From positions 1 to 26,150 of the IMG/VR virus record IMGVR_UViG_3300018080_001458: 26,150 nt of DNA. The stretch is one strand, 5' to 3'. Positions 4 to 25,649 of the stretch are shown here, piece by piece. This DNA comes from a virus. The notes under the pieces were generated by a model. It was not told the origin of the DNA. It ran no database searches and saw only the letters and a list, made by a program, of their open reading frames with translations. Each line of letters opens with the position of its first letter. Positions within the stretch are counted from its first letter, which is position 1. Made by a program: the position numbers and the translations under genes.

Positions 4-61
4 CATGGAAACCGATGAACCACGCAATGAATCAACCGGGGAGGTCGGCGCGGTTTCCATG
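4..61. repeat. 11-base inverted repeat at the end of the last sugar gene
   Basis: CATGGAAACCG (4-14) is the exact reverse complement of 51-61, with a 36-base spacer. It covers the stop of the last glycosyltransferase gene. It could fold in the transcript, but the spacer is long and no U-run follows inside the window. The short stretch before base 32 shows no supported gene. Confidence 0.4.
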
Positions 62-1318
62 TCTAGGAGTGATCCACTTAATCGGAACGTTGCTGACAGA
101 CAAGATACGTTGGCGGTGATTTAGAAATCTTTCTGGGTCACCGCCTTCTTTTACGTTCGAATCCACGCACCTTGCATAGTCTAACTTCTTATTGACACTT
201 GCATCAAAAGCTACGAGTCTTATTTCTGTTGTGTCAAACTTCTGTGCTAGCTTAATTGCACAGACAACTGTCAACGACATTGAGTGTGCTCCACCTAACT
301 CAGCCGGATTATAGATAATCTTTCGTGGGAATAATGAATAATGTTTCGCGGCTTGTACTGAGACTAGAAGTGTACCATATTGTGGTAAGCACCTATTCCT
401 AAGTGTCTCATCTTGTTGCATGACATATAGTGGATTTTGTAAATCAAGTGATTCAATCTTGTGGATTGATTCATTGATACAGATTATGGGCGCATGAGGA
501 TCTGTAAAAATTCTATGTGTAACATTATCAAGACTCGGCCCTTTTCCAATAATATAACAACTTGTATGCCTGAATATTGGTTCAATAGTCTCTAGTGGAA
601 GATTTGTGTCAGTCTGTGGGAACCACCGCTGTTCACCTTTAACTCTGATGAAATGTTCATCAAGAAATTTCATAGCATCATGATTACGTCTTACTAAAGT
701 AAATGAACCATCCGAGTGAAAACGAAGTCTTTGATTTTCTATGATAGTCGGAACATTTTCTTTAGATCCAACCTTCCTTTTGAAACGTCTGCTGGCTTGT
801 TGATGCTCAATAACCGGATCGCCCGAATCTTTCATAATATCAAAGATTTGTGTATATTGTGGTGGTGAGACTTCCACTCTCAGATTCTTGTCCTCTTTGA
901 TTGCTTGATCAAGAGTAACTTGATCCCACGAACCTGGATGCTTTGTTTGGATATGAAGCCACCTGTGAACCAGTCTATGGACTCGCTCATTATTTCTGAG
1001 GAAAATGGTTCCTGACAACAATTCTTTTCCTCTAAGATAATGAACAGAAACATCGACAAAAGAGTCTAGTGAGTCATAAAAACTTGGATACTGATAAATA
1101 ACAGCATCAGCATCGATATACAGTAAATCCTGGTTCGGGAACCGATTTAACATATCAAGGATGAACTCTGGCTTGATTGCAATATTCGCTAACCAATGAC
1201 CCCGACTCTCATAACCATGAACATAATAATTTAATCCTAGCCTATCAATCGAAGCAACAAGATTCTGTATCTCCTGTTCGTAAGGAGTATTCTTAGTATA
1301 GTAAGCAACGATAATCAT
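32..1318 (-). CDS. Two-domain protein: GT-A glycosyltransferase plus GKGPSLD (DUF115-like) domain
   Basis: A 428-residue fusion. The first part (about 1-230) starts MIIVAYYTKNTPYEQEIQ and carries LLYIDADAVIYQYP (DxD near 69-71), ELLSGTIFLRNN and WDQVTLDQAI, matching nucleotide-diphospho-sugar transferases of the Nucleotid_trans type. The second part (about 250-428) starts YIIGKGPSLD and has ICINES, MSLTVVCAIKLAQKF and RLVAFDAS, lining up with the N-terminal domain of the gene two places upstream. The same domain thus sits here at the C-terminus and there at the N-terminus. It likely builds a short glycan with the two neighbouring enzymes. Confidence 0.7.
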   Translation of the reverse strand: MIIVAYYTKNTPYEQEIQNLVASIDRLGLNYYVHGYESRGHWLANIAIKPEFILDMLNRFPNQDLLYIDADAVIYQYPSFYDSLDSFVDVSVHYLRGKELLSGTIFLRNNERVHRLVHRWLHIQTKHPGSWDQVTLDQAIKEDKNLRVEVSPPQYTQIFDIMKDSGDPVIEHQQASRRFKRKVGSKENVPTIIENQRLRFHSDGSFTLVRRNHDAMKFLDEHFIRVKGEQRWFPQTDTNLPLETIEPIFRHTSCYIIGKGPSLDNVTHRIFTDPHAPIICINESIHKIESLDLQNPLYVMQQDETLRNRCLPQYGTLLVSVQAAKHYSLFPRKIIYNPAELGGAHSMSLTVVCAIKLAQKFDTTEIRLVAFDASVNKKLDYARCVDSNVKEGGDPERFLNHRQRILSVSNVPIKWITPRHGNRADLPG

Positions 1319-2031
1319 TGTTCACTCCACTGTTTGGCATATCTTTGAATCACACGTCGTTTACAAGACATCAAATGTTCTTGGTGCGTGATTTGTTGTT
1401 GTGTATCATGCATCCGATAATAATACAAACACTCTTGAATGTGTCCCCATTTAACACCAGCAAGTACAGAACGCATATTCCAATCTCGATCTTCACTTAC
1501 TATTAACTCCTCATCAAAGAGACCAACTTTTGCAAAAACAGTTTTGCTTGTTAAGATAGATGCACAAACAGGGCCACCTTCTTTGGAATCCACCATATAA
1601 TGTTCTGCCACTAACTTACGCCCTCGAACAGCTTTCATTGACTGAGGTGTTACCATGAACATGTCTGTTGATACAATCATGTTTTCTTCTATAACAGCCA
1701 TTTGTTTCTCAATCTTTGTTGGATGATACCAATCATCAGCATCCAGCCTTGCAATGTATTCTCCTTCAGCCTTACTCAGTGCAATGTTTAAGGCTGCTGG
1801 GCATCCTCTGTGGTTAGTTGTATATAGCTTGATTCGGGCATCATCATACATCAACTCTTTGACGAGTTCTGCTGATCCATCATTACTTCCATCATCAACA
1901 CAAACAATTTCAATGTTTTTATATGTTTGTCTTAGACAACTAAGAAGTGCTCTGGTTAGAAAACGTTTCGCGTCGTAGATAGGCATTAGAATGCTTACTA
2001 ATGGCTTGTTTGTGATTTCTTTGTTGCTCAT
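1315..2031 (-). CDS. GT2-family glycosyltransferase
   Basis: A 238-residue GT2 enzyme: PLVSILMPIYDAKRF, IVCVDDGSNDGS, RLDADDWYHP (DxD near 98), and SEDRDWNMRSVLAG. It is clearly related to the GT2 half of the preceding gene product, including the shared ends (YYYYR...H...Q then a basic helix), so the two arose by duplication. AAGGA at good spacing supports the ATG at 2031. The first 30 codons, including the first strand and nucleotide-binding segment, are written over the end of the preceding gene in another frame. It overlaps the next gene by ATGA. Confidence 0.78.
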   Translation of the reverse strand: MSNKEITNKPLVSILMPIYDAKRFLTRALLSCLRQTYKNIEIVCVDDGSNDGSAELVKELMYDDARIKLYTTNHRGCPAALNIALSKAEGEYIARLDADDWYHPTKIEKQMAVIEENMIVSTDMFMVTPQSMKAVRGRKLVAEHYMVDSKEGGPVCASILTSKTVFAKVGLFDEELIVSEDRDWNMRSVLAGVKWGHIQECLYYYRMHDTQQQITHQEHLMSCKRRVIQRYAKQWSEQ

Positions 2032-3178
2032 GATTCATCCTTAGAGTTATTTGTTTTTCGTGTCTCCGATAATAGTAATAAACGTCAGGAATAAATCCCC
2101 AATTAACACCAGCAATACACGCTCGCATATTCCATTCACCATCAGAAGCTGCAAGTAATGAGACATCGAAACCACCAACTAAATCATAAACACGTTTCCA
2201 AGCGACTATCGTTGCGTTTACAGGGCCATCATTAACACTACCGCGCATATATGTGTGTTCTTTCATGTGAGTATTTGGGCAAACTCTTCTGGTCTTATCA
2301 TCATAGACCCACTCCATTCGACATGTAACTAAATCTTTCTGTGGATTAGACTGTAAATATGTGACACAATCTAAGAGTCTTGATGGATGATCCCAATCAT
2401 CAGCGTCTAGTCTAGCAATAATTTGACCACATGACATATCCAAACAAGTGTTTCTTGCCGTTGGACAGCCCAAATGTGGTATTTGTCTTAACCTAATACG
2501 ATAATCTTTATCAGCATATTGTTTGGCAATATTGTAAGTGTTATCCTTGGAACCATCATCAACAATACACAATTCCCAATTCGTATGTAATTGAGCTTGA
2601 ACACTTTTAATTGCATCTGCAATATAAGTAGACGCATTATATGCTGGCATCATTATACTAACTAAAGGAATTGTTCGGTGTTCAAAAATAGCTGTTACTT
2701 GCTCCTTGATTAGTGTTTCTTTAATCTGATTACTAATCTTAGTATATCCATCAGAATTGGTTCCCTCTCCACGAATCTCTTTGACAGATTCAGCATATCC
2801 TGTTCTTTTATCAATAGCATCAAATCCTACGAAGTGAATAATCTCAGCACCAAGAGTCTTAAGTACTTGTATTGCGACAACTGCTGTTGAAAAGAGATTT
2901 TTGGCATGTATGCCTTTACGCCAAACGAACACGTTGTCTATTTTGATATGACTGTGCTCATGTTTACGCAGTAGCGTGATGGAAGGATCAAGAGACAGTT
3001 CATATTTGTGTAAAACCTCATAGTCTATAGCTATGGCATATTTACATTGTTTAATCAGGAAAGCTGTTTCGTTGATACAAACAATCGGGCCTGTGGCTTT
3101 ACTCCAGTCATAATAATCTAAACTCGGGCCTTTACCAACCAACCAAACTTCTTTAGGGAGTGATATGTTTTCCCGCAT
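1940..3178 (-). CDS. Two-domain protein: GKGPSLD (DUF115-like) domain plus GT2 glycosyltransferase
   Basis: A 412-residue fusion. Residues 1-150 carry VWLVGKGPSLD (11-21), ICINET, STAVVAIQVLKTLGAE and HFVGFDAI, resembling DUF115/MptE-like domains (including flagellin Maf glycosyltransferases) and, more loosely, the GNGPSL motif of GT42 sialyltransferases. Residues about 168-400 are a GT2 domain: VSIMMPAYNAS, CIVDDGSKDN, RLDADDWDHP (DxD near 258) and SDGEWNMRACIAG. It probably adds two sugars or reads a sugar-lipid acceptor. Its last 92 bases overlap the next gene out of phase. It belongs to a second sugar cassette at the left of the window. Confidence 0.72.
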   Translation of the reverse strand: MRENISLPKEVWLVGKGPSLDYYDWSKATGPIVCINETAFLIKQCKYAIAIDYEVLHKYELSLDPSITLLRKHEHSHIKIDNVFVWRKGIHAKNLFSTAVVAIQVLKTLGAEIIHFVGFDAIDKRTGYAESVKEIRGEGTNSDGYTKISNQIKETLIKEQVTAIFEHRTIPLVSIMMPAYNASTYIADAIKSVQAQLHTNWELCIVDDGSKDNTYNIAKQYADKDYRIRLRQIPHLGCPTARNTCLDMSCGQIIARLDADDWDHPSRLLDCVTYLQSNPQKDLVTCRMEWVYDDKTRRVCPNTHMKEHTYMRGSVNDGPVNATIVAWKRVYDLVGGFDVSLLAASDGEWNMRACIAGVNWGFIPDVYYYYRRHEKQITLRMNHEQQRNHKQAISKHSNAYLRRETFSNQSTS

Positions 3179-7705: not shown

Positions 7706-8064
7706 GATACTGCCTCTCGAAACTGAAGTGTAACATCATAATTGGCATCATCATGATTTGTTATCAGTTCATTCGGATTGCTGATAAGAAAACCATTTCT
7801 TGTTGTGCCAAGATGATCTTCCCATGTGAGAAGTAGACCTGCCTTACTGAGAATGAATGTTCGAAGATCATCAACTGTCTCCTTCTTAACTTCAATGAAC
7901 TTGTATAAATATATTTTGAGTTCCTTACGATTAGAAACTCTTACAATATTTATATAGTTGCTTGAAGATCGATGTACTATTTGTCCTTTGTCTCTAGTGA
8001 CAGTATCATTGAAACTAGGACTTCGTAATTGAATACTCGTTGAACCTTCAGTTATTGTAAACAT
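7702..8064 (-). CDS. Distal tail protein, lambda gpM-like layout (copy 1)
   Basis: A 120-residue beta-rich protein directly after the tape measure gene. The layout is N-terminal strands, KKETVDDLRTFILSKAGLLL (helix, then Gly turn), WEDHLGTTRNGFLI, and a final strand VTLQFREA. This resembles the order of lambda gpM-like minor tail proteins (a helix followed by a Gly turn, a Trp/Asp loop, and a closing strand), but identity is too low for certainty. It overlaps the next gene, which has the same layout, by four bases. Confidence 0.5.
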   Translation of the reverse strand: MFTITEGSTSIQLRSPSFNDTVTRDKGQIVHRSSSNYINIVRVSNRKELKIYLYKFIEVKKETVDDLRTFILSKAGLLLTWEDHLGTTRNGFLISNPNELITNHDDANYDVTLQFREAVS

Positions 8065-11000
8065 TATATCCTAACCCTTCCACGACGTATTTCGTTTCGT
8101 AGTTCTCTACCAATATTCACAGCATCAACTTTCGAGCTACCAGAACTGTGGACACTGATATTGAAATCACCGTTTAGATTGGTTACTTGTCCTCCATGAG
8201 CCATTGGTTGAGGTGAATTCATTCTGATTAATTGGCTATAGAATCTTTCAGTTGACCGCTGATTCATTACAAACTCACCGGGGCTCAACATTGCAGGTAT
8301 AGTATCTGATCCTTTGGTTGCAAACCCACCACCAGCGAAGTATTGAAATCCACCAAATTTATTGTTAGTAGCTTGGCTTTGAGGATTTGAATAATCATTT
8401 GTTTTCTTGTTTTCTTCTTTCAACGTCTCAATCTGTTTGTTCATCGATTTCATAGTTTCAATAAGATCATAATATGTTGCTAAAAACTCTTGATTTTGAT
8501 CAGTAAATTTCTCATTCAGTGATTTTTGGGTTGTTATTCTAAAATTATATTCTGTTTCAATATATTTGATCATTTGTCTTTGTTTACTGATGGCGTCGGA
8601 CAAAATGATTAAATCACCTTTGTTCAAATCTTCAACAAATCGACGACTGAAATGTTTAGCATCTTCCAATGCTCTCTGTTCATTACGTTCTAGAACACCA
8701 CCACTCTCATCCTGTCTTTTTATAGCCTCGTCAATACCAGTCTCTCTGTCATTGATAGCATTTAAGATTCTTGCATATTTATCCAGTTGATAAACATCCG
8801 TATCACCAGTAAGTTCAGATCGAATATTTCTAAAAGTCTCTAATAGTGAAAACATTTCTTCAGCAACACCAAGATTCTGGGCTCTGTCTGCTGGTATTTG
8901 TTCAAGAGACATTATACTTTGTGTCAAAGCTCGGATATAAACATCCTCATATTTCTGTAGGTCTTTTGTGTTTTCCTCCAGTAAATTACGCAAAGTTTCA
9001 GCATCTTTAATCGCTTGTTTTTTACTAGCTTCTACGATCTTGGAGGCTTCGTCTAATTTATATGTTTCTTCTTTAGCAACCATAGCTTTCTTCAAATCTG
9101 CGATTTGTGAATCATATTCTTTGACATCTGCCAAACTACCAAGAAGTTCAGTCTCATATTTCTTCAGCTTCTCAAGTCGATTGACTTGCTTTGAAAACTC
9201 GCGAACTGCTTCTTTAGGATCAGTCAAAGCTACAGTATCTTCATAACTAAACTCTAAAACATCTTCTAAATATTTCTCCCATGTTTTCTTTTGCTTGGTA
9301 AGTGTAAACTCTTGTTCTTTAGCTTGCTTCAGTTGCTCTGCTTGCTCTTTCCGAATTTGTTCAAGGAGTTTTACACGAGTCTGATAATACTTGTTTATAG
9401 TTTCCTCAATCTCAACCCGTTCTAGATTGAAGACATCTGTATCTTTAATACTATCACGAATGTCATTCCACTCTTTATGGAAGTCTAGTGTTGCATCGTT
9501 TATTTGATGCTGAATCTCACGTAATTCAACCGCATTCTTGATTGGGTCTCTATGGAGTTGTGACTCCTTCAGCTTTAATACTGAGATTTCGTCATTGTAA
9601 TCTGCTCTTGCTTTTCTCAGTTCGCGGAATAATTTTGCTCGTTTTTTAGCATTAGTTTCATTCTGTGTCTCAAGCTGTGCTTCAAGATTTATTTGTTTAA
9701 TCAACAGTTGACGATATTCCTCATCAAAAATCTTGAATGCATCATAGTCACCTTCTTTAGCAACTATTGCAGATTTCTTTTGCAACATGGTTAATCTTTC
9801 AATAACCATGTCAATTTGTTCTCTTATCTCAGCTTCATTGAACTGGAGTCCAAATATGTCTTTCTGTGCTGAGAACTCTGAGTCTTTTATTTCTTTCCTT
9901 ATGTCCTCAATATTAGACTTGATTTCTTGTATCCGTTTGGTGGTATCTTTAATTTGTTCTTCAAAAAGCTCAATGCTTGCTTTCTGAGAATCTTTCATTG
10001 CATCTACACTGGCTTCATAAGCCTCAGCATTCGCAAACAAGGCAGTGTTTACAGCACCAATATGTTTTGCTGTTGCTTGTATTGTTTCAGCACCGAGGTC
10101 TGCTATCCCTCTAGTTATATTATTTGTGATGTTTACAAATAGTGCGTTCCAGCTGTCTAATAATTTTGCATTTTGTGCTACCAACTGACTACTGGTATAT
10201 TGAGCATCTACAGCTGCAATCTTAAATCTGTTGATATGATCCATCAATTCAGAAAAAGCCACGCCCGCTGTTGCAAGTGTTAAGAATAGTGGGTTAGTTG
10301 CAGCAACCTTCAGTAAGTAAGCTCCTAAAACTGATAATGCTGGAACTAGAAGCTGTGTAATAGCTTTTGCCGTACTTCTGATTACTGTATCAGCACCATC
10401 AAATGTATCAAAGAATATTACAATTTTGTTTAAGAAGTCTGTGCCAATGTCAACTTTGAAATAGTTCTTAACTTTGTTAAGCTCAATTTCAAACTTCTTT
10501 CCAACGTTGGACATAACTAAGTCAACGGCTTTTTCATAGTCCAGCAACGGATCTTTTAAGGCTTCTTCATTTTTCTTATAGATTTCAAATCCTTCACCTG
10601 AAAAAGCTAAGGTACCAGTCAAACCACGGAGTCGATTAACAAGTTTTGCAATCTCCGTTGTTTGGCCTTTAGTCCTTTCTTGTAATTCTTTAAGGAATCC
10701 ACCAAGACCATATACTTGAATCGCGGCTTCCCCTGATGAAACACCTAACTCGGAAAAGAATTTCTTCATCTCACCAGTTGGCTTGATAAGTTTCAAAAGG
10801 ATTCCGCGAATCTGTGTGGCAGCTTCATTATACTTGATACCTTGTATAGTAAGTGTTGCAATAGCTGCATTGAGTTCATACATCTCAATATTAAGTTTGT
10901 TTGCAATAACTGAAATACGACCGTAGCTTTGTGCCATTTCATTAGCACGAACTCGACCAAGTTCAATAGTCTTGAAGAAGGTAGCGGCAGTTATTTCAGC

Positions 11001-12131
11001 TTCATAAGCTGATTTCTCAAAAGAGTTCAAAGCTGCTGTAAGAAGATTAACTGCATCATCAGTCGTTGAAACAGTTGCGACTGCAAATTTATTAGCTGAG
11101 GAAAGAAAGGTAAGAGCCTCTGAACCTTTGGCAATCTGATTAGATATTGCTTGGTATGTTGCTTCAGCCTGTTGAGCAATATCAAGCCCCCAAACATCTG
11201 ATATTTGACGCAACCCACCTAACCACTCATCTGTGCTTAACTGTTGCTTCTGTGAAATGGTCTGTATTTCAGAGATAGCTTTTTGAATTGCTACTGCTTG
11301 TCTTACACCCTCTGACATACCACGAACCAGGGCACTTACAGCTTGATGTGCTAACTGGACAGCTACAAGATGGACGATATTTTCCCACGATAGTCTTAGA
11401 TGTGCAATCTGCTTGCGATGGGCCTCAGTGGCTCTTGAGGCTCTACTGATACTCCTATCATACTTATTACCAAGATCAAGAGACTTGCCCCAACCTGTAT
11501 TATATTGATTCTGCAGTCTGAGGATGTTAAACATCTGCTTTTGGATGTTTCTCATCTGTGGATCACTGATCGCAGTTACATCACCGATTCGAACTTTTTC
11601 CCATAATGCTCGAACCTTTGCAGAGGATACTTGATGCTGTTTCACATATGACTTTAAGCTACCAACTGCATCTTTGAGATTAAACAATCCCTGTAAGTTA
11701 AGCTGTTTTGGATCTGTTTTTGATTGGATGGACTTGCCAATATATGCCGCGGCCTTTCTTGCATCCGCGACAGCCCTTGCTTTCGCTTCATTTAATTTTT
11801 GTTCTTCAATCAGAGCTTTTCTTGTTGCCTTAGCAGCTTCCTTCATTGCCGCTGTTTCACGCGTAAGAGTTGTGGCTCTTCTAGTCTCTGTATTTATACT
11901 TTTGCCTTTGGCATCATATAATTGTATTGTTGATCTTGTTGAATTTTCAGTTTCAAGACGAACTTCTGCGAGTACATTTTTGACAGCCTTGCCAACCTGA
12001 AGATATTTAGTAACCGCGTTTACATGCTTGACAGTTTCGCCAGTCATATTCTCCCATTCCTTCGCAATGCGTTGTGCTTCGCGAACGAAATCCTGGCCTT
12101 CCATCTGATAGCTTATTTGTTCTTCTGGCAT
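8064..12131 (-). CDS. Tail tape measure protein
   Basis: A 1355-residue protein that sets tail length and is expelled with the DNA at infection. The region around 270-560 (IQTISQKQQLSTDEWLGGL through GLTGTLAFSGEG) matches TP901-type tape measure domains. Hydrophobic segments at about 590-640 (ITQLLVPALSVLGAYLL, PLFLTLATAGVAF) are the usual membrane-active part. A very long coiled coil covers about 720-1240. Near the C-terminus is AMLSPGEFVMNQRSTERF, a hallmark of this family. At roughly 0.15 nm per residue it implies a tail near 200 nm (inference). It is the longest gene in the window and follows the chaperone block. Confidence 0.9.
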   Translation of the reverse strand: MPEEQISYQMEGQDFVREAQRIAKEWENMTGETVKHVNAVTKYLQVGKAVKNVLAEVRLETENSTRSTIQLYDAKGKSINTETRRATTLTRETAAMKEAAKATRKALIEEQKLNEAKARAVADARKAAAYIGKSIQSKTDPKQLNLQGLFNLKDAVGSLKSYVKQHQVSSAKVRALWEKVRIGDVTAISDPQMRNIQKQMFNILRLQNQYNTGWGKSLDLGNKYDRSISRASRATEAHRKQIAHLRLSWENIVHLVAVQLAHQAVSALVRGMSEGVRQAVAIQKAISEIQTISQKQQLSTDEWLGGLRQISDVWGLDIAQQAEATYQAISNQIAKGSEALTFLSSANKFAVATVSTTDDAVNLLTAALNSFEKSAYEAEITAATFFKTIELGRVRANEMAQSYGRISVIANKLNIEMYELNAAIATLTIQGIKYNEAATQIRGILLKLIKPTGEMKKFFSELGVSSGEAAIQVYGLGGFLKELQERTKGQTTEIAKLVNRLRGLTGTLAFSGEGFEIYKKNEEALKDPLLDYEKAVDLVMSNVGKKFEIELNKVKNYFKVDIGTDFLNKIVIFFDTFDGADTVIRSTAKAITQLLVPALSVLGAYLLKVAATNPLFLTLATAGVAFSELMDHINRFKIAAVDAQYTSSQLVAQNAKLLDSWNALFVNITNNITRGIADLGAETIQATAKHIGAVNTALFANAEAYEASVDAMKDSQKASIELFEEQIKDTTKRIQEIKSNIEDIRKEIKDSEFSAQKDIFGLQFNEAEIREQIDMVIERLTMLQKKSAIVAKEGDYDAFKIFDEEYRQLLIKQINLEAQLETQNETNAKKRAKLFRELRKARADYNDEISVLKLKESQLHRDPIKNAVELREIQHQINDATLDFHKEWNDIRDSIKDTDVFNLERVEIEETINKYYQTRVKLLEQIRKEQAEQLKQAKEQEFTLTKQKKTWEKYLEDVLEFSYEDTVALTDPKEAVREFSKQVNRLEKLKKYETELLGSLADVKEYDSQIADLKKAMVAKEETYKLDEASKIVEASKKQAIKDAETLRNLLEENTKDLQKYEDVYIRALTQSIMSLEQIPADRAQNLGVAEEMFSLLETFRNIRSELTGDTDVYQLDKYARILNAINDRETGIDEAIKRQDESGGVLERNEQRALEDAKHFSRRFVEDLNKGDLIILSDAISKQRQMIKYIETEYNFRITTQKSLNEKFTDQNQEFLATYYDLIETMKSMNKQIETLKEENKKTNDYSNPQSQATNNKFGGFQYFAGGGFATKGSDTIPAMLSPGEFVMNQRSTERFYSQLIRMNSPQPMAHGGQVTNLNGDFNISVHSSGSSKVDAVNIGRELRNEIRRGRVRI

Positions 12132-12132
12132 G

Positions 12133-12675
12133 TTACTTTCCTCGTTTGAAACCGTCAGCTAATAGCGGTAAGTATTTGGGATCGCGTTTATTGGATTCAA
12201 TAAAATCAATAAAGGCTCGTTCACCAATAGGTAAACTGTTCCATGCTTTTGTTTGGAATCCATTTTCATGTAATACATACTGATAAATAACAATCTGAAA
12301 AGCAAACAAGAATCTCATATCGGAAACTGTGCCATATTTGATAGTATATGCCTCTTGTCCAAGAGTCATACCTAGAGACTTTGTTTTCTTCGTTTTTGGA
12401 TGATAACCACCAGCTGCATCAGTATATCCTTTTCTAGGATTACCAATCCCTGTCAAAGAAGCCTCTACAACTTGTCCAAGTTGAACACGTCGGGCTAATG
12501 GAATAAGTGATGCTTTAGACATACCACTATCAATTTGTATTACATCTGCATCAATGATTGCTGTAATAAATGCCTGTATTGAGTCTTTCCAAAAACGTGA
12601 TAATTTGCGTTGCGCTGATTCAGTGAACGCCTTCTGACTGAATTTTAAGTTTGTCCTTTTAATTATGATTTTCAT
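12133..12675 (-). CDS. Unknown tail-block protein between chaperone and tape measure
   Basis: A 180-residue basic protein I cannot assign to a known function. The N-terminus has helices (FWKDSIQAFITAIIDADVI), then DSGMSKASLIPLARRV, a Gly-rich part with AAGGYHPKTKKTKSLG, and a conserved-looking end (FQIVIYQYVLHENGFQTKAWNS... FIDFIES). The DSGMS-ASL-PLAR and YHP features suggest a compact virion or assembly protein. The ATG follows CCAAA with no ribosome site close by. The stop is one base before the tape measure ATG. Confidence 0.5.
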   Translation of the reverse strand: MKIIIKRTNLKFSQKAFTESAQRKLSRFWKDSIQAFITAIIDADVIQIDSGMSKASLIPLARRVQLGQVVEASLTGIGNPRKGYTDAAGGYHPKTKKTKSLGMTLGQEAYTIKYGTVSDMRFLFAFQIVIYQYVLHENGFQTKAWNSLPIGERAFIDFIESNKRDPKYLPLLADGFKRGK

Positions 12676-12687
12676 TTTGGGTAAGGT

Positions 12688-12710
12688 GGGGCGGGATATT
12701 ATCCCGCCCC
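12688..12710 (-). repeat. GC-rich hairpin between chaperone extension and next gene
   Basis: Perfect palindrome with GGGGCGGG arms and an AT-rich 7-base loop. It starts seven bases after the frameshift-product TAG and ends 12 bases before the next ATG. No U-run follows on either strand, so it is not a standard terminator. It may stabilise mRNA, or bring the GGAG at 12716-12713 closer to the ATG at 12675, which lacks its own ribosome site. Confidence 0.65.
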
Positions 12711-12716
12711 GTCTCC

Positions 12717-12932
12717 CTACTGTTGCTTTAACCCTGCTAGCTCACATTCTTCAATCTCGCGTATTTGATTATACGCTATCAAGTCGGCCTGCGCCTCAGC
12801 GCTATTATCCTCCCAATCGGCTTTTACTCCGTGGGGTCTGATTCCGAATCTTTCGCAGGCACGCCACTCGGCGTAATACTCAGTTCGGAACTTCGGGATA
12901 ATTGTTCTTTGAGAACTTCGGCCTGACCAGCT
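12717..12932 (-). CDS. Tail chaperone -1 frameshift extension (GT-like product)
   Basis: The -1 frame of the chaperone gene is open from the slippery site to a TAG at 12717, adding 71 residues to the first 148 for a product of about 219. The added part looks like real protein: EYYAEWRACERFGIRPHG, then VKADWEDNSAEAQADLIAYN, then QIREIEECELAGLK. It has no ATG or GTG of its own, so frameshifting is the only clear way to make it. It fills the otherwise empty stretch between the 0-frame stop and the next gene. Lambda G/GT is the model: the short form coats the tape measure and the long form recruits tube subunits. Confidence 0.78.
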   Translation of the reverse strand, partial: SWSGRSSQRTIIPKFRTEYYAEWRACERFGIRPHGVKADWEDNSAEAQADLIAYNQIREIEECELAGLKQQ

Positions 12933-13375
12933 AAAAAACGCTTACGAGCCTCATCAATTTTGCCTTGATTCAATCCACAAGCTGTGAGAACTGCACCAGT
13001 GATTTGGTTAATCTCCATAACAGAGAAACTTGCATCTTCCAGTTCCTTGATAAAATTACCATAGGTGTCTGGGTTCAGCATATTCACTGTTTCCCACTCC
13101 AAGTTTTCTGTTGCTTGGAGCGATGTAAGCATCATCCAGTGTGTCCTCTTCCTGGCGTAATCCTCAAGTTCTTCTTGGAACTTTTGATCATCGATATCTA
13201 CTTCTTGAGCACCACCTGGTTTCAGCAAGGTTGGAGGTTTTGGTCTTGGGCACAGCTCTTCAAACTCATCATAATTCAAAACGCAAGCACATTTGAACAC
13301 ACAATCGCCCTCCGGCCGTGGGATTACCACGACTTCGGGTTGTCTCTCGGATATTTTCTTACCGTTCAATTTCAT
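12824..13375 (-). CDS. Tail assembly chaperone, short (0-frame) form
   Basis: A 183-residue acidic helical protein between the tail tube and tape measure genes, the slot of lambda G. The first 60 residues include a Cys- and Pro-rich part (FKCACVLNYDEFEELCPRP); the rest is helical (TVNMLNPDTYGNFIKELEDA, then NQITGAVLTACGLNQ). Such chaperones coat the tape measure protein while the tail grows. At codons 147-148 (TTT TTA) it contains a UUUUUUA slippery heptamer, allowing a second, longer product read in the -1 frame. After the slip site the 0-frame tail (35 residues) is low in complexity, as expected if selection acts mainly on the other frame. Confidence 0.75.
   Translation of the reverse strand: MKLNGKKISERQPEVVVIPRPEGDCVFKCACVLNYDEFEELCPRPKPPTLLKPGGAQEVDIDDQKFQEELEDYARKRTHWMMLTSLQATENLEWETVNMLNPDTYGNFIKELEDASFSVMEINQITGAVLTACGLNQGKIDEARKRFLAGQAEVLKEQLSRSSELSITPSGVPAKDSESDPTE
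12932..12952 (-). promoter_or_regulatory. Programmed -1 frameshift site: SD-like element and UUUUUUA
   Basis: T TTT TTA in the correct phase for tandem slippage occupies 12938-12932. A GAGG (12952-12949) lies ten bases upstream of it, the spacing known for Shine-Dalgarno stimulation of -1 frameshifting in dnaX. A small AT-rich hairpin (arms GTTCT/AGAAC) lies 15 bases downstream at 12904-12916; whether it stimulates is unclear. Confidence 0.75.
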
Positions 13376-13422: not shown

Positions 13423-13950
13423 TTATTGTGCGGCACGTGTCGCAGTTGCGGTGGTTGCATTGCAACGTCCGGAACAGGAGATTGTACCTGCACGAAGATC
13501 GTGTGACAGATCTTCATAACGGAAATCCGGCAACGTAATTGTTTCAACATCACCAGTTGAACAATCAGGCGTATTCACGACAACGATATCAACTGCGAAC
13601 GGACGGCACTGATCAGAATCCGAAGACGTCCAATCAGCCGCGCCACCTTGATTCTTGAGAGCATCTTCAACAGTGGGCGTTGCGCCAGTACTGTTGCGTC
13701 CACGGACGTATTCCCAAGTCAAATCAAAGCTGACATCCATTGGCTGTTCATCGCCATCACGAACCTCATCCAAGAGGCCACGATTCAACGTGTACTCTCG
13801 CTCAACCTTTTCGCTATAGGTCAAGTTTCCTTCACCTATTTTGATTTCGATTGAGTTTTGAGGATCTGAACCATCCTTAATGTACAACACACAATCTTTG
13901 AGGTCAATCTGCATAAATGCAGGTACCTCAGCATTTAGAAAATACTTCAT
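13423..13950 (-). CDS. Major tail tube protein
   Basis: A 175-residue beta-rich protein expected to form the tail tube. I place the start at the ATG at 13950, directly after AAGGAGAGAAAG; a longer frame starting at 13983 would translate this ribosome site. It starts MKYFLNAEVPAFMQID, like the capsid protein, and later has FDLTWEYVRG, FAVDIVVVN and LPDFRYEDLSHDLRAGTIS, which fit tail tube strands. Place, size, strong ribosome site and the following tail chaperone gene support the call. It ends with CSGRCN and a Thr/Ala-rich tail. Confidence 0.75.
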   Translation of the reverse strand: MKYFLNAEVPAFMQIDLKDCVLYIKDGSDPQNSIEIKIGEGNLTYSEKVEREYTLNRGLLDEVRDGDEQPMDVSFDLTWEYVRGRNSTGATPTVEDALKNQGGAADWTSSDSDQCRPFAVDIVVVNTPDCSTGDVETITLPDFRYEDLSHDLRAGTISCSGRCNATTATATRAAQ

Positions 13951-13962
13951 CTTTCTCTCCTT
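13951..13962 (-). promoter_or_regulatory. Ribosome binding site of the tail tube gene
   Basis: AAGGAGAGAAAG, identical over 12 bases to the site before the capsid gene and likewise touching the ATG. It decides the start at 13950. Confidence 0.8.
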
Positions 13963-13964
13963 GG

Positions 13965-14411
13965 TTATGAGCTTAACACACAACTAAAACTACCATCAAC
14001 AGTTGCCTGTCGAAGTGGTATGGTTGGCTCTATTTGTCCAAAGTCTCTGATCTTGATCTCACCTACTGGTCGTAGACAGGCAAGATAACTATCATCATCT
14101 TCGGCGTTCAAGCCATATTTGTTCACAGTTATAGCAGTGAAGCCTTCTGCTATTTTACCTGTGAGAACATTTATAGTATAAACATTAGTTGTAACAGGTA
14201 TTTGTATAAGAACATTAACTCGAATATCAACCTTAAAATCACTGTGGCTTATTTGTGTAAAAACTGGGCCGTCAACTCTAACTTCAAACGTCTTATCGTT
14301 TTCATTGACAGAATCTTTTCCGTCAAGTTGATACTTAAAATCAGATTCTTCCAATAAAGAAAGATGTTTATGTATTGATGCTATAATCCATTTTGTCCAG
14401 CTATCATTCAT
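13965..14411 (-). CDS. Putative tail terminator / tail completion protein
   Basis: A 148-residue alpha/beta protein with an N-terminal helix (WTKWIIASIHKHLSL) followed by beta strands (TFEVRVDGPVFTQIS, KVDIRVNVLIQIP). Lambda gpU-like tail terminators have a similar size and occupy the same slot just before the tail tube gene. No sequence motif proves the family. It overlaps the previous gene by four bases, and its stop lies 15 bases before the tail tube start. Confidence 0.5.
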   Translation of the reverse strand: MNDSWTKWIIASIHKHLSLLEESDFKYQLDGKDSVNENDKTFEVRVDGPVFTQISHSDFKVDIRVNVLIQIPVTTNVYTINVLTGKIAEGFTAITVNKYGLNAEDDDSYLACLRPVGEIKIRDFGQIEPTIPLRQATVDGSFSCVLSS

Positions 14412-21987: not shown

Positions 21988-22208
21988 GGTCGTGTACTCC
22001 GTTTAACTGCTTCACCGACTGCTTGACCAATGCCTTCTGGGTCGACCACAGTTGGAATAACTTTGTTTTGATAGATGATAACGATGGAACTTTCAGCAGG
22101 AACATAAACACAACCATTAAGAAAATAAACAACAATAACGAGTAAAATAGGTATAAGAATCTCAGCAACCCATTGATTCTTGCATCTTTGAGGTAATTCA
22201 TGCATCAT
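21984..22208 (-). CDS. Small lipoprotein-like or single-pass membrane protein
   Basis: A 74-residue protein with one strongly hydrophobic segment (about residues 14-32) after a short positive N-terminus. It ends in FLNGC, which resembles a lipobox (Leu-x-Gly-Cys), so it may be lipid-anchored at Cys33, leaving a 41-residue exposed tail. It is tiled exactly between neighbours, with ATGA overlaps on both sides, which supports this frame over a longer overlapping frame. The start could be the first or second ATG. Phage lipoproteins of this size can be outer spanins or superinfection-exclusion proteins; no lysis gene is nearby and the tail is not Pro-rich, so neither role is shown. Confidence 0.5.
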   Translation of the reverse strand: MMHELPQRCKNQWVAEILIPILLVIVVYFLNGCVYVPAESSIVIIYQNKVIPTVVDPEGIGQAVGEAVKRSTRP

Positions 22209-22855
22209 ATTTTCATCCTTTCATGATCATATGTTCCAACTTCACGACGTTTTTGATACATTTCTTTCATCTTATGTGATGTTCCACGTCCCCACCAATT
22301 TTGTCCATTAGTTCCGAGATGTAATAATCTAATGTCTAATCTAATTCGTTCATGTCTTGGCCAGAGAGACTGAAAATCAGAGTCGAAACCACCAGCGTGT
22401 TTCCACTCTGTAAACATTGGATTAGGTCGTTTTGGTATTCTCTGACCTTGCAAATGAAATATCCAAAAATAGCCAGGAAATTCTTTTTCATTAAGCCTTT
22501 CACCTTTCTCCCAACGATGAGCACCATATAGCATATTCTTATCAAGTCTTGGGAGTTGATTTTTCCAATCCATAGGAGGCAATATGTCAGAATCAAATAT
22601 GCAGATAAAATCATCTTCACCTCGAACAGTTTCGATAGCTTGATTCATTGCTCCCGCTTTATTGAAACTTGCACCATTTTCATAAAATCTATCTGTGCTA
22701 AATGTGCTTACGTTGCCAAATTTTTGAGCAACTTGAACTGTTTGCCAGTCTTGTAAATCAGTGATGACGATTATTTCCGACAATGATCCAGACCAAACTT
22801 CAAGAGTCTGTGATAGATAATCTGAATAATTGACACAAACTGTCAAGCCAATCAT
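22205..22855 (-). CDS. GT-A glycosyltransferase with DSD motif
   Basis: A 216-residue protein with the layout of a metal-dependent GT-A glycosyltransferase. GASFNKAGAMNQAI (about 61-74) matches the helix before the active site, and FICIFDSDILPP (about 83-94) carries the DxD motif at Asp88-Ser-Asp90. WKHAGGFDSDF and RIRLDIRLLHLG fit the acceptor-side region. It resembles galactosyl- and GalNAc-transferase-like GT2 relatives more than the other GT2 proteins here. It follows the sulfotransferase with a four-base overlap and overlaps the next small gene by four bases, so it should be co-translated with the sugar cassette. Donor and acceptor are unknown. Confidence 0.72.
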   Translation of the reverse strand: MIGLTVCVNYSDYLSQTLEVWSGSLSEIIVITDLQDWQTVQVAQKFGNVSTFSTDRFYENGASFNKAGAMNQAIETVRGEDDFICIFDSDILPPMDWKNQLPRLDKNMLYGAHRWEKGERLNEKEFPGYFWIFHLQGQRIPKRPNPMFTEWKHAGGFDSDFQSLWPRHERIRLDIRLLHLGTNGQNWWGRGTSHKMKEMYQKRREVGTYDHERMKI

Positions 22856-23382
22856 CTGTCACCTCGTTGCTCACTTGTGTTTTTTGGCTTGTTGAAAGAT
22901 TCCTTAGCCAACTCAAAATCTCCTTCAGCATCAATCCAGTCCCAAAAATCTTTTAATTGATGCTGGATTTTCTCTATCATCAATAGTTTCTTTTGTGATT
23001 CTGGTATCTGTTGAAATACTATTGAACAAGTATGTAGTAGGCACCGCGTTGTGATTCTAGCTGCCTCATCAAGATTAGTTGGCTTAAGTGTATTATAGAA
23101 CACCCACCAGTCACGTAGCCATCTTCCTTTATCTAAAACTCTTATTGAAGCAGTTACTTTTTCTGGATTCCTAGTAAGCCAAACGAATTTAGCATCAAGA
23201 TACTTGCTCATCAATTCTGGTATAATGACTCTGAATTGTGGATTAACCTCAATATGATTATCTGGATATTCCAAATCATAATTTATAGATTCATGAGCAC
23301 ATGTATAGTTAGTCATGTATTTACAAGATTCTGCAAATGAAACAGAACCGCATCTTCCTGAACCAAAAACAAATACTCTCAT
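22852..23382 (-). CDS. PAPS-dependent sulfotransferase-like protein
   Basis: A 176-residue probable sulfotransferase moving sulfate from PAPS to a hydroxyl or amine, most likely on a sugar given its neighbours. The N-terminal GSGRCGSVSFAES (residues 7-19) is the 5'-phosphosulfate loop, here with Arg-Cys in place of the more usual Lys/Arg-Ser/Thr. The second signature is AKFVWLTRNPEKVTASI, with Arg71 and Ser79 eight residues apart as expected for 3'-phosphate binding. The protein is short for the family (usually 250 or more), so it is a minimal form. It overlaps both neighbours by four bases. Sulfotransferases are unusual in phage structural regions. The family is well supported; the acceptor is unknown. 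Confidence 0.75.
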   Translation of the reverse strand: MRVFVFGSGRCGSVSFAESCKYMTNYTCAHESINYDLEYPDNHIEVNPQFRVIIPELMSKYLDAKFVWLTRNPEKVTASIRVLDKGRWLRDWWVFYNTLKPTNLDEAARITTRCLLHTCSIVFQQIPESQKKLLMIEKIQHQLKDFWDWIDAEGDFELAKESFNKPKNTSEQRGDR

Positions 23383-24275
23383 TGCTTGTGCCTCAATCCT
23401 TGATAATCTGTAGCTTCATCAATAGTTGAATCCAACGATGTGTGTACAACTCTCTTTTGTCTACGATTACCAACCATCTGATATGATCTACTTATATCAT
23501 CAACAAACTCAACATCATTATGTCCCTTCATTTTGAGAGGAACACCACAATTATGACAAAAGCATAATTGATCTTGAAAATCGATAACAGGATGTTTCCA
23601 CCAAGTTGGAGTAAATGGCATCCCGTATTGTGTTTCTTCTGTCATACCAGCAAAGGCCGCACCAACTTCACATAGATAACAGAACAGTTCACCATCGTGT
23701 TCTGTGACAGCAGGACTCCAGCGTTGATTCACATCACAATTTGCGATAAGATCATATCGTTGAGATTCTTCGATACCAAAATCTATAGGTGATACAAGCA
23801 CAGGTGCATGATGGCTTGGTGTCGTTCCCCAAATCGGGGTCGCTGGATCAATGTGTTCCGCCATCTCCATTTGTGCCTCTTTATTGGTATGTACATTGAG
23901 ATTCATATATCCATATGTATCTACGATGATCTTGCCATAACCTCTAAAATTATTTGTCCAAAGACCGCGTCGCTTTTTGTCTGGAATCCTTTCTTTCATG
24001 TATGCTGTGATTTCTTTGAACTGTGGGTGGATACACGGATTGCCACCAAAGATACCAATGACTCCTGGATAATCGATTAGAGAGTCAATGGCTCGTTTTA
24101 CATTATCAAGTTTCATACAGAAACGATTACGTTGGTGGCAAATAAGTTGTGTGCAATTTGAGCATTGTCCAATGTCACAATGGTTTGTGATGATGATCTG
24201 AATTACACCATAGCAACCGTCCCCACGCTTTTGGCCTGGGTATTTCATTTTTCTCATGCATTCTATCTTATTCAT
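23379..24275 (-). CDS. Radical SAM protein with SPASM-like C-terminal cysteines
   Basis: A 298-residue probable radical SAM enzyme, which would use a [4Fe-4S] cluster and S-adenosylmethionine for radical chemistry. Cys33, Cys38 and Cys41 sit in TNHCDIGQCSNC, a CX4CX2C spacing instead of the usual CX3CX2C; Cys46 is close by. GIFGGNPCIHPQF at 74-86 matches the family's GGEP-type motif, with Asn for Glu. WTNN near 104 fits a later strand. Toward the C-terminus, FCYLCEVG and LCFCHNCG give a second group of cysteines like a SPASM or twitch auxiliary cluster. It sits between a glycosyltransferase and a sulfotransferase with ATGA overlaps, so it may act on a sugar or on a peptide of the virion; the substrate is unknown. 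Confidence 0.72.
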   Translation of the reverse strand: MNKIECMRKMKYPGQKRGDGCYGVIQIIITNHCDIGQCSNCTQLICHQRNRFCMKLDNVKRAIDSLIDYPGVIGIFGGNPCIHPQFKEITAYMKERIPDKKRRGLWTNNFRGYGKIIVDTYGYMNLNVHTNKEAQMEMAEHIDPATPIWGTTPSHHAPVLVSPIDFGIEESQRYDLIANCDVNQRWSPAVTEHDGELFCYLCEVGAAFAGMTEETQYGMPFTPTWWKHPVIDFQDQLCFCHNCGVPLKMKGHNDVEFVDDISRSYQMVGNRRQKRVVHTSLDSTIDEATDYQGLRHKQ

Positions 24276-25027
24276 TGTATCTGAACCACATATGATTGTT
24301 GCCTGCCACGAGTTAACATCCTAACTTGATTATGTTTATCCCTAACAGGAAGACTGTTTAACTGTTTTGTTATGTATATACCAGTTGTTGCAATTAAAAT
24401 TTCATCTTCCACAACAAAACACTCAACGCCTTCCTTATATAATTGTTTACTAAATAAAATACGTTCTTTTGTTTGATTAGCAGTGACTTCAGATTTGTGA
24501 TTATAGTGATAGAGAATCTTGTTAATATGGTACTCGGTCAAAATGATTCCAGAATCGATTAATGGTTTGTACCATAGCTGATCATCGCCATACCCTAGAT
24601 TCTCATCCCAAGCTACCTTCGTTGCTATCTCTTTACGCCACGCACATAAATGATTTGCTTTCATTAAGACGATATCACCAACTGTTTGTTGATCTTGATA
24701 TCTAACCCCAAAGGCTTGTCTGTGGAAAGATTTTCCATTTGTGTTTTGTTCAAGCTCAAAGGTCACAACGTCGAGACCTAAAGCACATGCTTTTCTTAAG
24801 TCATAAACAAAGTCACTTGATACTGAATCATCATCATCAACGAAACAAATATATGTTCCTTTTGCTCGTGCTGTTAATAGGTTTCTTTTAGTTCCGCTTG
24901 TCTTTTCACCAAAATCGGCTTCTGTCAGAACTTCAACATCATTGAAACGAGTTGCCTGTTTCTTGAGACAGGCAACTGTTTCTTGTGAACGTTGCTTTAA
25001 TACTGGTATGAGGATTGAAAGTATCAT
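24272..25027 (-). CDS. GT2-family glycosyltransferase
   Basis: A GT-A fold glycosyltransferase of about 251 residues that would move a sugar from a nucleotide sugar to an unknown acceptor. I chose the ATG at 25027, directly after the TAA of the preceding gene, because the family's first strand (SILIPVL) follows it at once; an upstream ATG at 25057 would add ten residues with no family match. TKRNLLTARAKG is followed by an acidic DDDD at about 64-67, the metal and nucleotide-sugar site. GYGDDQLW near residue 155 fits the late catalytic acid motif. It overlaps the next gene by four bases (ATGA). First gene of an AT-rich sugar-modification cassette. Donor and acceptor cannot be read from the sequence. 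Confidence 0.8.
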   Translation of the reverse strand: MILSILIPVLKQRSQETVACLKKQATRFNDVEVLTEADFGEKTSGTKRNLLTARAKGTYICFVDDDDSVSSDFVYDLRKACALGLDVVTFELEQNTNGKSFHRQAFGVRYQDQQTVGDIVLMKANHLCAWRKEIATKVAWDENLGYGDDQLWYKPLIDSGIILTEYHINKILYHYNHKSEVTANQTKERILFSKQLYKEGVECFVVEDEILIATTGIYITKQLNSLPVRDKHNQVRMLTRGRQQSYVVQIQ

Positions 25028-25028
25028 A

Positions 25029-25649
25029 TTACCACACAATCGCCTGTAGGACACCAAGTGTTACAGCATTCCAGACCTGCTCGTTGAGCTGCCCCTTCTT
25101 GTTTCGGGTCGCCTGTACATGGCCAAAGACCTCAGCAGCAATAGCTTTGATCATGTCACCGTCAAGTTGGATTGCCATTCCGGTCTGTGAAAACTCCCAT
25201 GTGATTGTAAACGCCGGATCAACTTGCAGGAAGCCAAGAGCTTTACCTAGTTCTTCCTGTGTCTCTTTACTGGTACTGATCGGGATATCATTCCACACGG
25301 TTCCGGCCAGTTCTTCAGCTTCACGGGCAGTTTCAAGTTCATTCAGTTTTTGCCATCTATCGTCGTCAGTCGCCGGATCATCGGGCATCCTCGCTGTTCC
25401 CTGCTGAACAGGGCCGGAATCCGTCATAAGGACGGTCGTCTCTGTATGATCTACTGCATCCGCAGGCGGCGTGTAGGGCGTGACCGGCACGATCTCATGC
25501 CGCGCCAGCCCGTTTGCATCCGGTCGCTGGAACTTGCGTCCACAGTGCGGGCATGTTTGTCTGTACCAGCCCACGAGGGTTTTGCAGTGCTCGTCGGAGA
25601 TGGTGTCTCCCTGTGAGTAGGGTGTCGTGTATGCATATTTCTGTGTCAT
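25029..25649 (-). CDS. DUF4376-like protein with an incomplete N-terminal zinc finger
   Basis: A 206-residue soluble protein. The C-terminal half (about 115-206) contains WNDIPISTSKETQ, a stretch around FTITWEF, then an Ala-rich helix ending near the C-terminus. This resembles DUF4376, often found in phage proteins near tail-fibre genes. Near residues 33-51 is CPHCGRKF followed by LARH, which looks like a C2H2 zinc finger, but the fourth ligand is missing at the usual spacing; Cys22 might replace it. The middle is acidic and Pro-rich and probably disordered. It sits between the LamG-like gene and the first glycosyltransferase and shares the LamG gene's higher GC. A tail-fibre accessory or assembly role is a guess from context. 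Confidence 0.55.
   Translation of the reverse strand: MTQKYAYTTPYSQGDTISDEHCKTLVGWYRQTCPHCGRKFQRPDANGLARHEIVPVTPYTPPADAVDHTETTVLMTDSGPVQQGTARMPDDPATDDDRWQKLNELETAREAEELAGTVWNDIPISTSKETQEELGKALGFLQVDPAFTITWEFSQTGMAIQLDGDMIKAIAAEVFGHVQATRNKKGQLNEQVWNAVTLGVLQAIVW

Follow-up and report, generated by a model that had tools for sequence, protein, structure and literature searches.

The window, that is, the whole stretch of DNA analyzed here, is a virus record of 26,150 bases (IMGVR_UViG_3300018080_001458, positions 1 to 26,150). Based on Pfam and PHROG profile scans, its minus strand carries a late-gene cluster with terminase, portal, P22-like coat and tail genes. Judged by their appearance, the genes that flank this structural module on the same strand (32-3178 and 22205-25057) are glycosyltransferase-like and sulfotransferase-/radical-SAM-like. 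Among the tail genes, two overlapping open reading frames are placed between the gene in the tail-tube position and the tape measure gene, with one extra gene before the tape measure. The features, from upstream to downstream, are as follows.

13423-13983, minus strand: probable major tail (tube) protein, 186 aa as listed, assigned from position and conservation
12824-13375, minus strand: candidate G-like tail assembly chaperone, the frame-0 product, 183 aa (open reading frame, structural model, 31-row alignment)
12949-12952, minus strand: Shine-Dalgarno (SD)-like GAGG, a possible weak stimulator, 10 nt upstream of the heptamer
12932-12938, minus strand: slippery heptamer T TTT TTA, coding Phe147-Leu148, in phase and conserved
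12717-12931, minus strand: T-like extension in the -1 frame, 71 codons (12932-12720) and a TAG (12719-12717) (35-row alignment, structural model)
12688-12710: perfect 11-bp inverted repeat, in the spacer that separates T from the gene after it
12133-12675, minus strand: gene of 180 aa between the GT pair and the tape measure gene, conserved in position
8064-12131, minus strand: tail length tape measure protein, 1355 aa (PF10145, 2.5e-24; PHROG tape measure, 1.8e-21)

The neighboring genes are largely maintained in the relatives described below. The upstream gene at 13423-13983 is kept in 33 of the 36 relatives, and it is this conservation, together with the tail-tube position, that makes it the probable tube protein; the protein has no match of its own in Pfam, PHROG or the sequences of solved structures. 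Nearly all relatives have a counterpart of the 12133-12675 gene (about 155-200 aa) in the corresponding position, and Pfam and PHROG scans of this protein gave no match. Some members of this gene set have in common a V-P-x-W-T-G motif, which recalls tail completion proteins. Of the 32 relatives with a readable downstream candidate, 28 have a protein resembling the window's tape measure at the equivalent site. In the window the T stop is 41 nt from the start of the next gene (12675). The inverted repeat that lies in between has the arms GGGGCGGGATA/TATCCCGCCCC, occurs as a single copy within the window and has no adjoining T run. Many relatives have, instead of such a spacer, a 4-nt overlap of the T stop with the start of the next gene.

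Frame 0 at 12938-12932 on the minus strand reads CGT TTT TTA GCT, which places the heptamer in the X XXY YYZ phase. Because of a TAA at 12944-12942, the -1 frame opens just ahead of the slip; it then runs for 71 codons to the TAG ahead of the next gene. It contains neither ATG nor GTG, and the single TTG, at 12782, lies deep inside the extension. The phase of the heptamer, the 71 open codons up to the TAG, the lack of ATG and GTG, and the GAGG ten bases upstream of the heptamer (12952-12949) had been noted in a preliminary description of the sequence and were confirmed. The same description regarded the stretch covered by the -1 frame as otherwise intergenic. This holds for 12717-12823, which is read in the -1 frame alone, whereas the first ~35 codons of the extension overlap the end of G. 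The G protein comprises 148 aa that are common to the long form, followed by a 35-aa tail of its own, and the fusion GT has a length of 219 aa (148 + 71). A lone 71-codon open frame is weak evidence by itself, and the bare heptamer is not rare, as the window holds 5 copies on both strands against 9.4 expected.

Conservation and predicted structure of the two products

We compared the locus with 36 non-redundant relatives, 34 of them from viral contigs (found in three scans) and two from bacterial metagenome-assembled genomes (MAGs), one of Anaerolinea (Chloroflexota) and one of Planctomycetota, found in one scan of genome contigs. Together with the window these make up 37 loci. The preliminary description had made its reading depend on relatives keeping both the heptamer and the -1 frame, and the outcome is in its favor. 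An exact T TTT TTA stands in 26 of the 37 loci, and the -1 protein family is present at the same place in 36/36 relatives, a count that is partly the result of selection because the later searches had the T domain in the query. In the first search, with the G part alone as query, all five loci that were found have both T and the exact heptamer. The -1 proteins of the viral relatives are 27-57% identical to that of the window.

The codons at the site are conserved far beyond what codon use would give. Phe-Leu is encoded in 34 loci, in 26 of them by TTT TTA, against 3.7 expected from the codon use of each locus. With the preceding T included, the count is 26 against ~1.5, with a P of about 1e-35 that treats related loci as independent, an assumption that fails. 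Saturation of synonymous sites is to be expected, given the long terminal branches in the tree (median 0.52 changes per site). The ranking of codon conservation within G serves as an internal control that does not assume independence. Over 47 conserved G columns (median 0.42), the Phe and Leu of the heptamer rank first and second, with values of 0.97 and 0.80. By comparison, no codon exceeds 0.39 in the remaining conserved Leu columns, and the second Phe column stands at 0.63. In the heptamer, Phe is encoded by TTT in 35/36 and Leu by TTA in 28/35. Conservation of the final A can be attributed in part to the start of a Ser or Thr codon in the -1 frame, yet coding in that frame would not account for the choice of TTT or for the opening T of the Leu codon. 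The conservation of the -1 protein, of the heptamer and of its codons across the relatives excludes chance.

The T alignment (35 rows) shows P13, R16, Y20, C26, R28, P33, W40 and Q56 as invariant or near-invariant. The structural model of the 71-aa T domain consists of two helices (pLDDT 83.9), for which Foldseek gave no meaningful match. The T sequence has no match among solved structures and, in the searches done, the domain matches known T proteins neither in sequence nor in fold. A search of the extension against phage proteins had been proposed earlier as a check. Scans with the T domain in the query recovered its family in the relatives (viral contigs and MAGs). Pfam gave nothing usable for the extension, the only PHROG match was a weak one, to phrog_17856 (unknown function, four members; best 8.6e-5), and tblastn with two fusion proteins against 50,697 phage records found no match.

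The AlphaFold2 model of G (pLDDT 81.6, pTM 0.67) has as its best solved match YqbN (3klu), with a Z of 6.8 and an rmsd of 3.5 over 98 residues at 10% identity; the next match has a Z of 3.1. The YqbN score is moderate, as a Z below 8 taken alone could mean merely a common arrangement. The weak Foldseek matches of the model include several named tail assembly chaperones, and YqbN is listed among the phage tail assembly chaperones together with HK97 gp13 (PMC9603447). The G protein has no usable match in Pfam, PHROG or PDB sequences. The YqbN match is supportive of a predicted tail assembly chaperone fold rather than proof of it, and it is this match, the weak chaperone matches and the agreeing gene position from which the identity of G as a tail assembly chaperone is proposed.

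Stimulators, variant slip sites and alternative readings

The GAGG was originally described as a stimulator at dnaX-like spacing. It is present at the 10-nt spacing in 18/37 loci and at some spacing in 22/37, and it is absent in 15/37. It sits on conserved Glu-Ala codons and is therefore partly forced by the protein. Within these codons GAG is used in 18/26 cases against 10.6 expected (P about 0.002, loci counted regardless of kinship), whereas the Glu just before, taken as a control, shows no such bias (8/27 against 10.5). The mean anti-SD pairing is -4.9 kcal/mol against -3.9 kcal/mol in synonymous shuffles (Wilcoxon P 0.008, again regardless of kinship). The codon bias and the pairing lend modest support to an SD-like stimulator, and with the element missing from 15 loci we regard it as a putative weak aid.

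A conserved downstream RNA structure was sought at the slip site across the relatives and was not found. Over the relatives, the mean folding z of -0.84 at the site does not fall below that of several flanking positions (-0.9 at -420 and -200 and -1.2 at +80), and the window itself gives -0.29 (81 nt) and -1.25 (70 nt). Individual relatives, such as L027 and L035, show strong downstream folds.

The 11 of the 37 loci that lack TTTTTTA carry variants, some of them imperfect for tandem slippage: TTTTCTA in six loci (L017, L022, L024, L025, L053 and L054), and TTTCTTA, TTTTTTG (L041), TTTTATA, GCTTTTA and TTTTTAG in one each. The TTTTCTA and TTTCTTA loci group in one supported 8-row set (96/85) with one TTTTTTA member. 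For the TTTTCTA loci, P-site slippage would be the simplest reading, because tRNA-Phe re-pairs perfectly in the P site and tRNA-Leu cannot re-pair on UCU. CTA is fixed in all six although it makes up only 2-32% of their Leu codons and is a minor one in most of these loci, which suggests P-site slippage at a slow codon. In L052 (2959-2965), a very divergent row (end branch 3.9), the site is T TTT TAG; the stop codon of G itself would occupy the A site, and the shift would occur at this TAG. One possible option, which we put forward tentatively and rate as somewhat less than probable, is that the recoding mechanism changed within one chaperone family: mostly tandem slippage on U UUU UUA, in a subclade P-site re-pairing on U UUU CUA with CTA perhaps slowing the A site, and U UUU UAG in L052, with an SD-like element rather than a hairpin tuning the rate.

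These variants also bear on the foremost rival of ribosomal frameshifting, namely slippage of RNA polymerase on the T6 run, which would create a mixed mRNA pool, part of which places T in frame. There is a T6 run at the junction, as this reading needs, although six bases are short for known transcriptional slippage. Polymerase slippage would not require the X XXY YYZ phase in which the run always stands, and loci with short runs keep the same -1 protein (T3 in L014; T4 in L017; T5 in L022, L024, L025, L053 and L054). Polymerase slippage could not be excluded at a similar Lactococcus site (PMC10986495). Here, with the phase fixed and the arrangement maintained at T3-T5 loci, we consider it quite unlikely. 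Still less probable is an independent small T gene that has a start of its own and merely overlaps G. T does follow directly after G, and separate small tail genes exist in some phages, but the -1 frame of the window offers only the TTG noted above, 29/37 loci have no ATG, GTG or TTG in the first 25 codons of this frame, and the starts found elsewhere share no common place. In addition, the G codons of the slip site are conserved beyond the needs of the G protein. A sequencing or assembly error of one base too many or too few, for which a homopolymer run is a typical site, is refuted as the cause of the split by the independent relatives, since the same split is seen in 36 non-redundant relatives from many samples and the G frame runs 6-35 codons beyond the site to its own stop in all but L052.

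Proposed mechanism and comparison with known systems

With these alternatives set aside, programmed -1 ribosomal frameshifting that yields a tail assembly chaperone pair of the G/GT kind is very probably what the sequence encodes, and this reading is strongly supported by the comparative evidence, the predicted fold and the synteny. What we observe directly is a slip site that is in phase and conserved, a -1 protein maintained across the relatives, the order of the genes and a TAC-like fold in the model. From these we infer the slippage itself, its rate, the tandem mechanism, the aid by GAGG and the roles in assembly. Most ribosomes would stay in frame 0 up to the TAA, which gives the short form of 183 aa. 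On a minority of ribosomes, tRNA-Phe and tRNA-Leu on U UUU UUA would slip back by one base onto UUU UUU, and translation in the -1 frame would then give the 219-aa long form, with the 148 common residues followed by the T domain of 71 aa. If lambda is a guide, the tape measure protein may be coated by many G and few GT molecules, the T domain may recruit the tail tube protein, and both G and GT may leave before the virion is completed. Several observations weigh against the reading: no downstream structure is conserved, 15 loci lack the GAGG, 11 have another heptamer, and the T domain matches no known T in the searches done. A further one is that U UUU UUA proved far less slippery than A AAA AAG when tested in E. 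coli (PMC5009743), though such low slipperiness would suit a low level of GT.

The mechanism itself is already known. New are the conservation of U UUU UUA, the TTT CTA subclade and a protein family with no usable match in Pfam or PHROG. The family adds to the tail chaperones one that is absent from Pfam and PHROG profiles, and the long forms of such chaperones would escape gene callers. The hosts are poorly known bacteria, with two relatives lying in Chloroflexota and Planctomycetota MAGs. The varied slip sites around one conserved protein junction make a natural series for the determinants of frameshift rate where there is no hairpin.

In lambda, the genes for the tail tube and the tape measure flank those for G and GT, and the heptamer is GGGAAAG. 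The locus described here has an extra gene between the GT pair and the tape measure, and its proteins have no sequence similarity to those of lambda. It resembles lambda, where a short chaperone is accompanied by a -1 extended form made at a low level (PMC5009743), in that it would yield such a pair. In lambda a product ratio near 30:1 is crucial, with the G part binding the tape measure protein and T binding the tube protein (PMC5009743). The chaperone fold of B. subtilis YqbN (3klu) and HK97 gp13 (2OB9) offers a second comparison, in that the predicted G aligns with YqbN but has no family profile match; in the searches done here no protein similarity to any named tail chaperone family was detectable.

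The closest likeness in the slip site is to E/E+E' of P2, where a -1 shift also takes place on T6 followed by a purine, at the end of a small tail chaperone gene and with no hairpin reported (PMC3091744; PMC3931495). The P2 tail chaperone gene uses TTTTTTG without a downstream hairpin, a site conserved in KS5, KS14 and KL3, and secondary structure is said to be rare at phage frameshift sites (PMC3091744); Smp131 has T7G (PMC3931495). The last base is G in P2, whereas the window has T6A and not the T6G of E/E' (among the relatives, L041 has TTTTTTG), and the P2 operon is a contractile-tail one. The preliminary description had further claimed that UUUUUUA with an SD-like stimulator and no hairpin would be a distinct variant. 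While the frameshift itself is very probable, on the phase of the site, its conservation, the -1 protein, the fold and the synteny, this part is not well supported, because P2 and its relatives already use a poly-U heptamer without a hairpin (PMC3091744; PMC3931495). In the literature searched, which lay mostly outside subscription papers, we found no UUUUUUA in a phage tail chaperone, and an earlier report is possible.

Outside phages, the heptamer of the window is identical to that of HIV-1 gag-pol, where U UUU UUA, combined with the HIV stem-loop, is functional on ribosomes of E. coli (PMC7282821). The HIV site has a strong stem-loop, whereas none is conserved here. Since the genes are unrelated, the common heptamer of HIV-1 and this phage family is a case of convergence.
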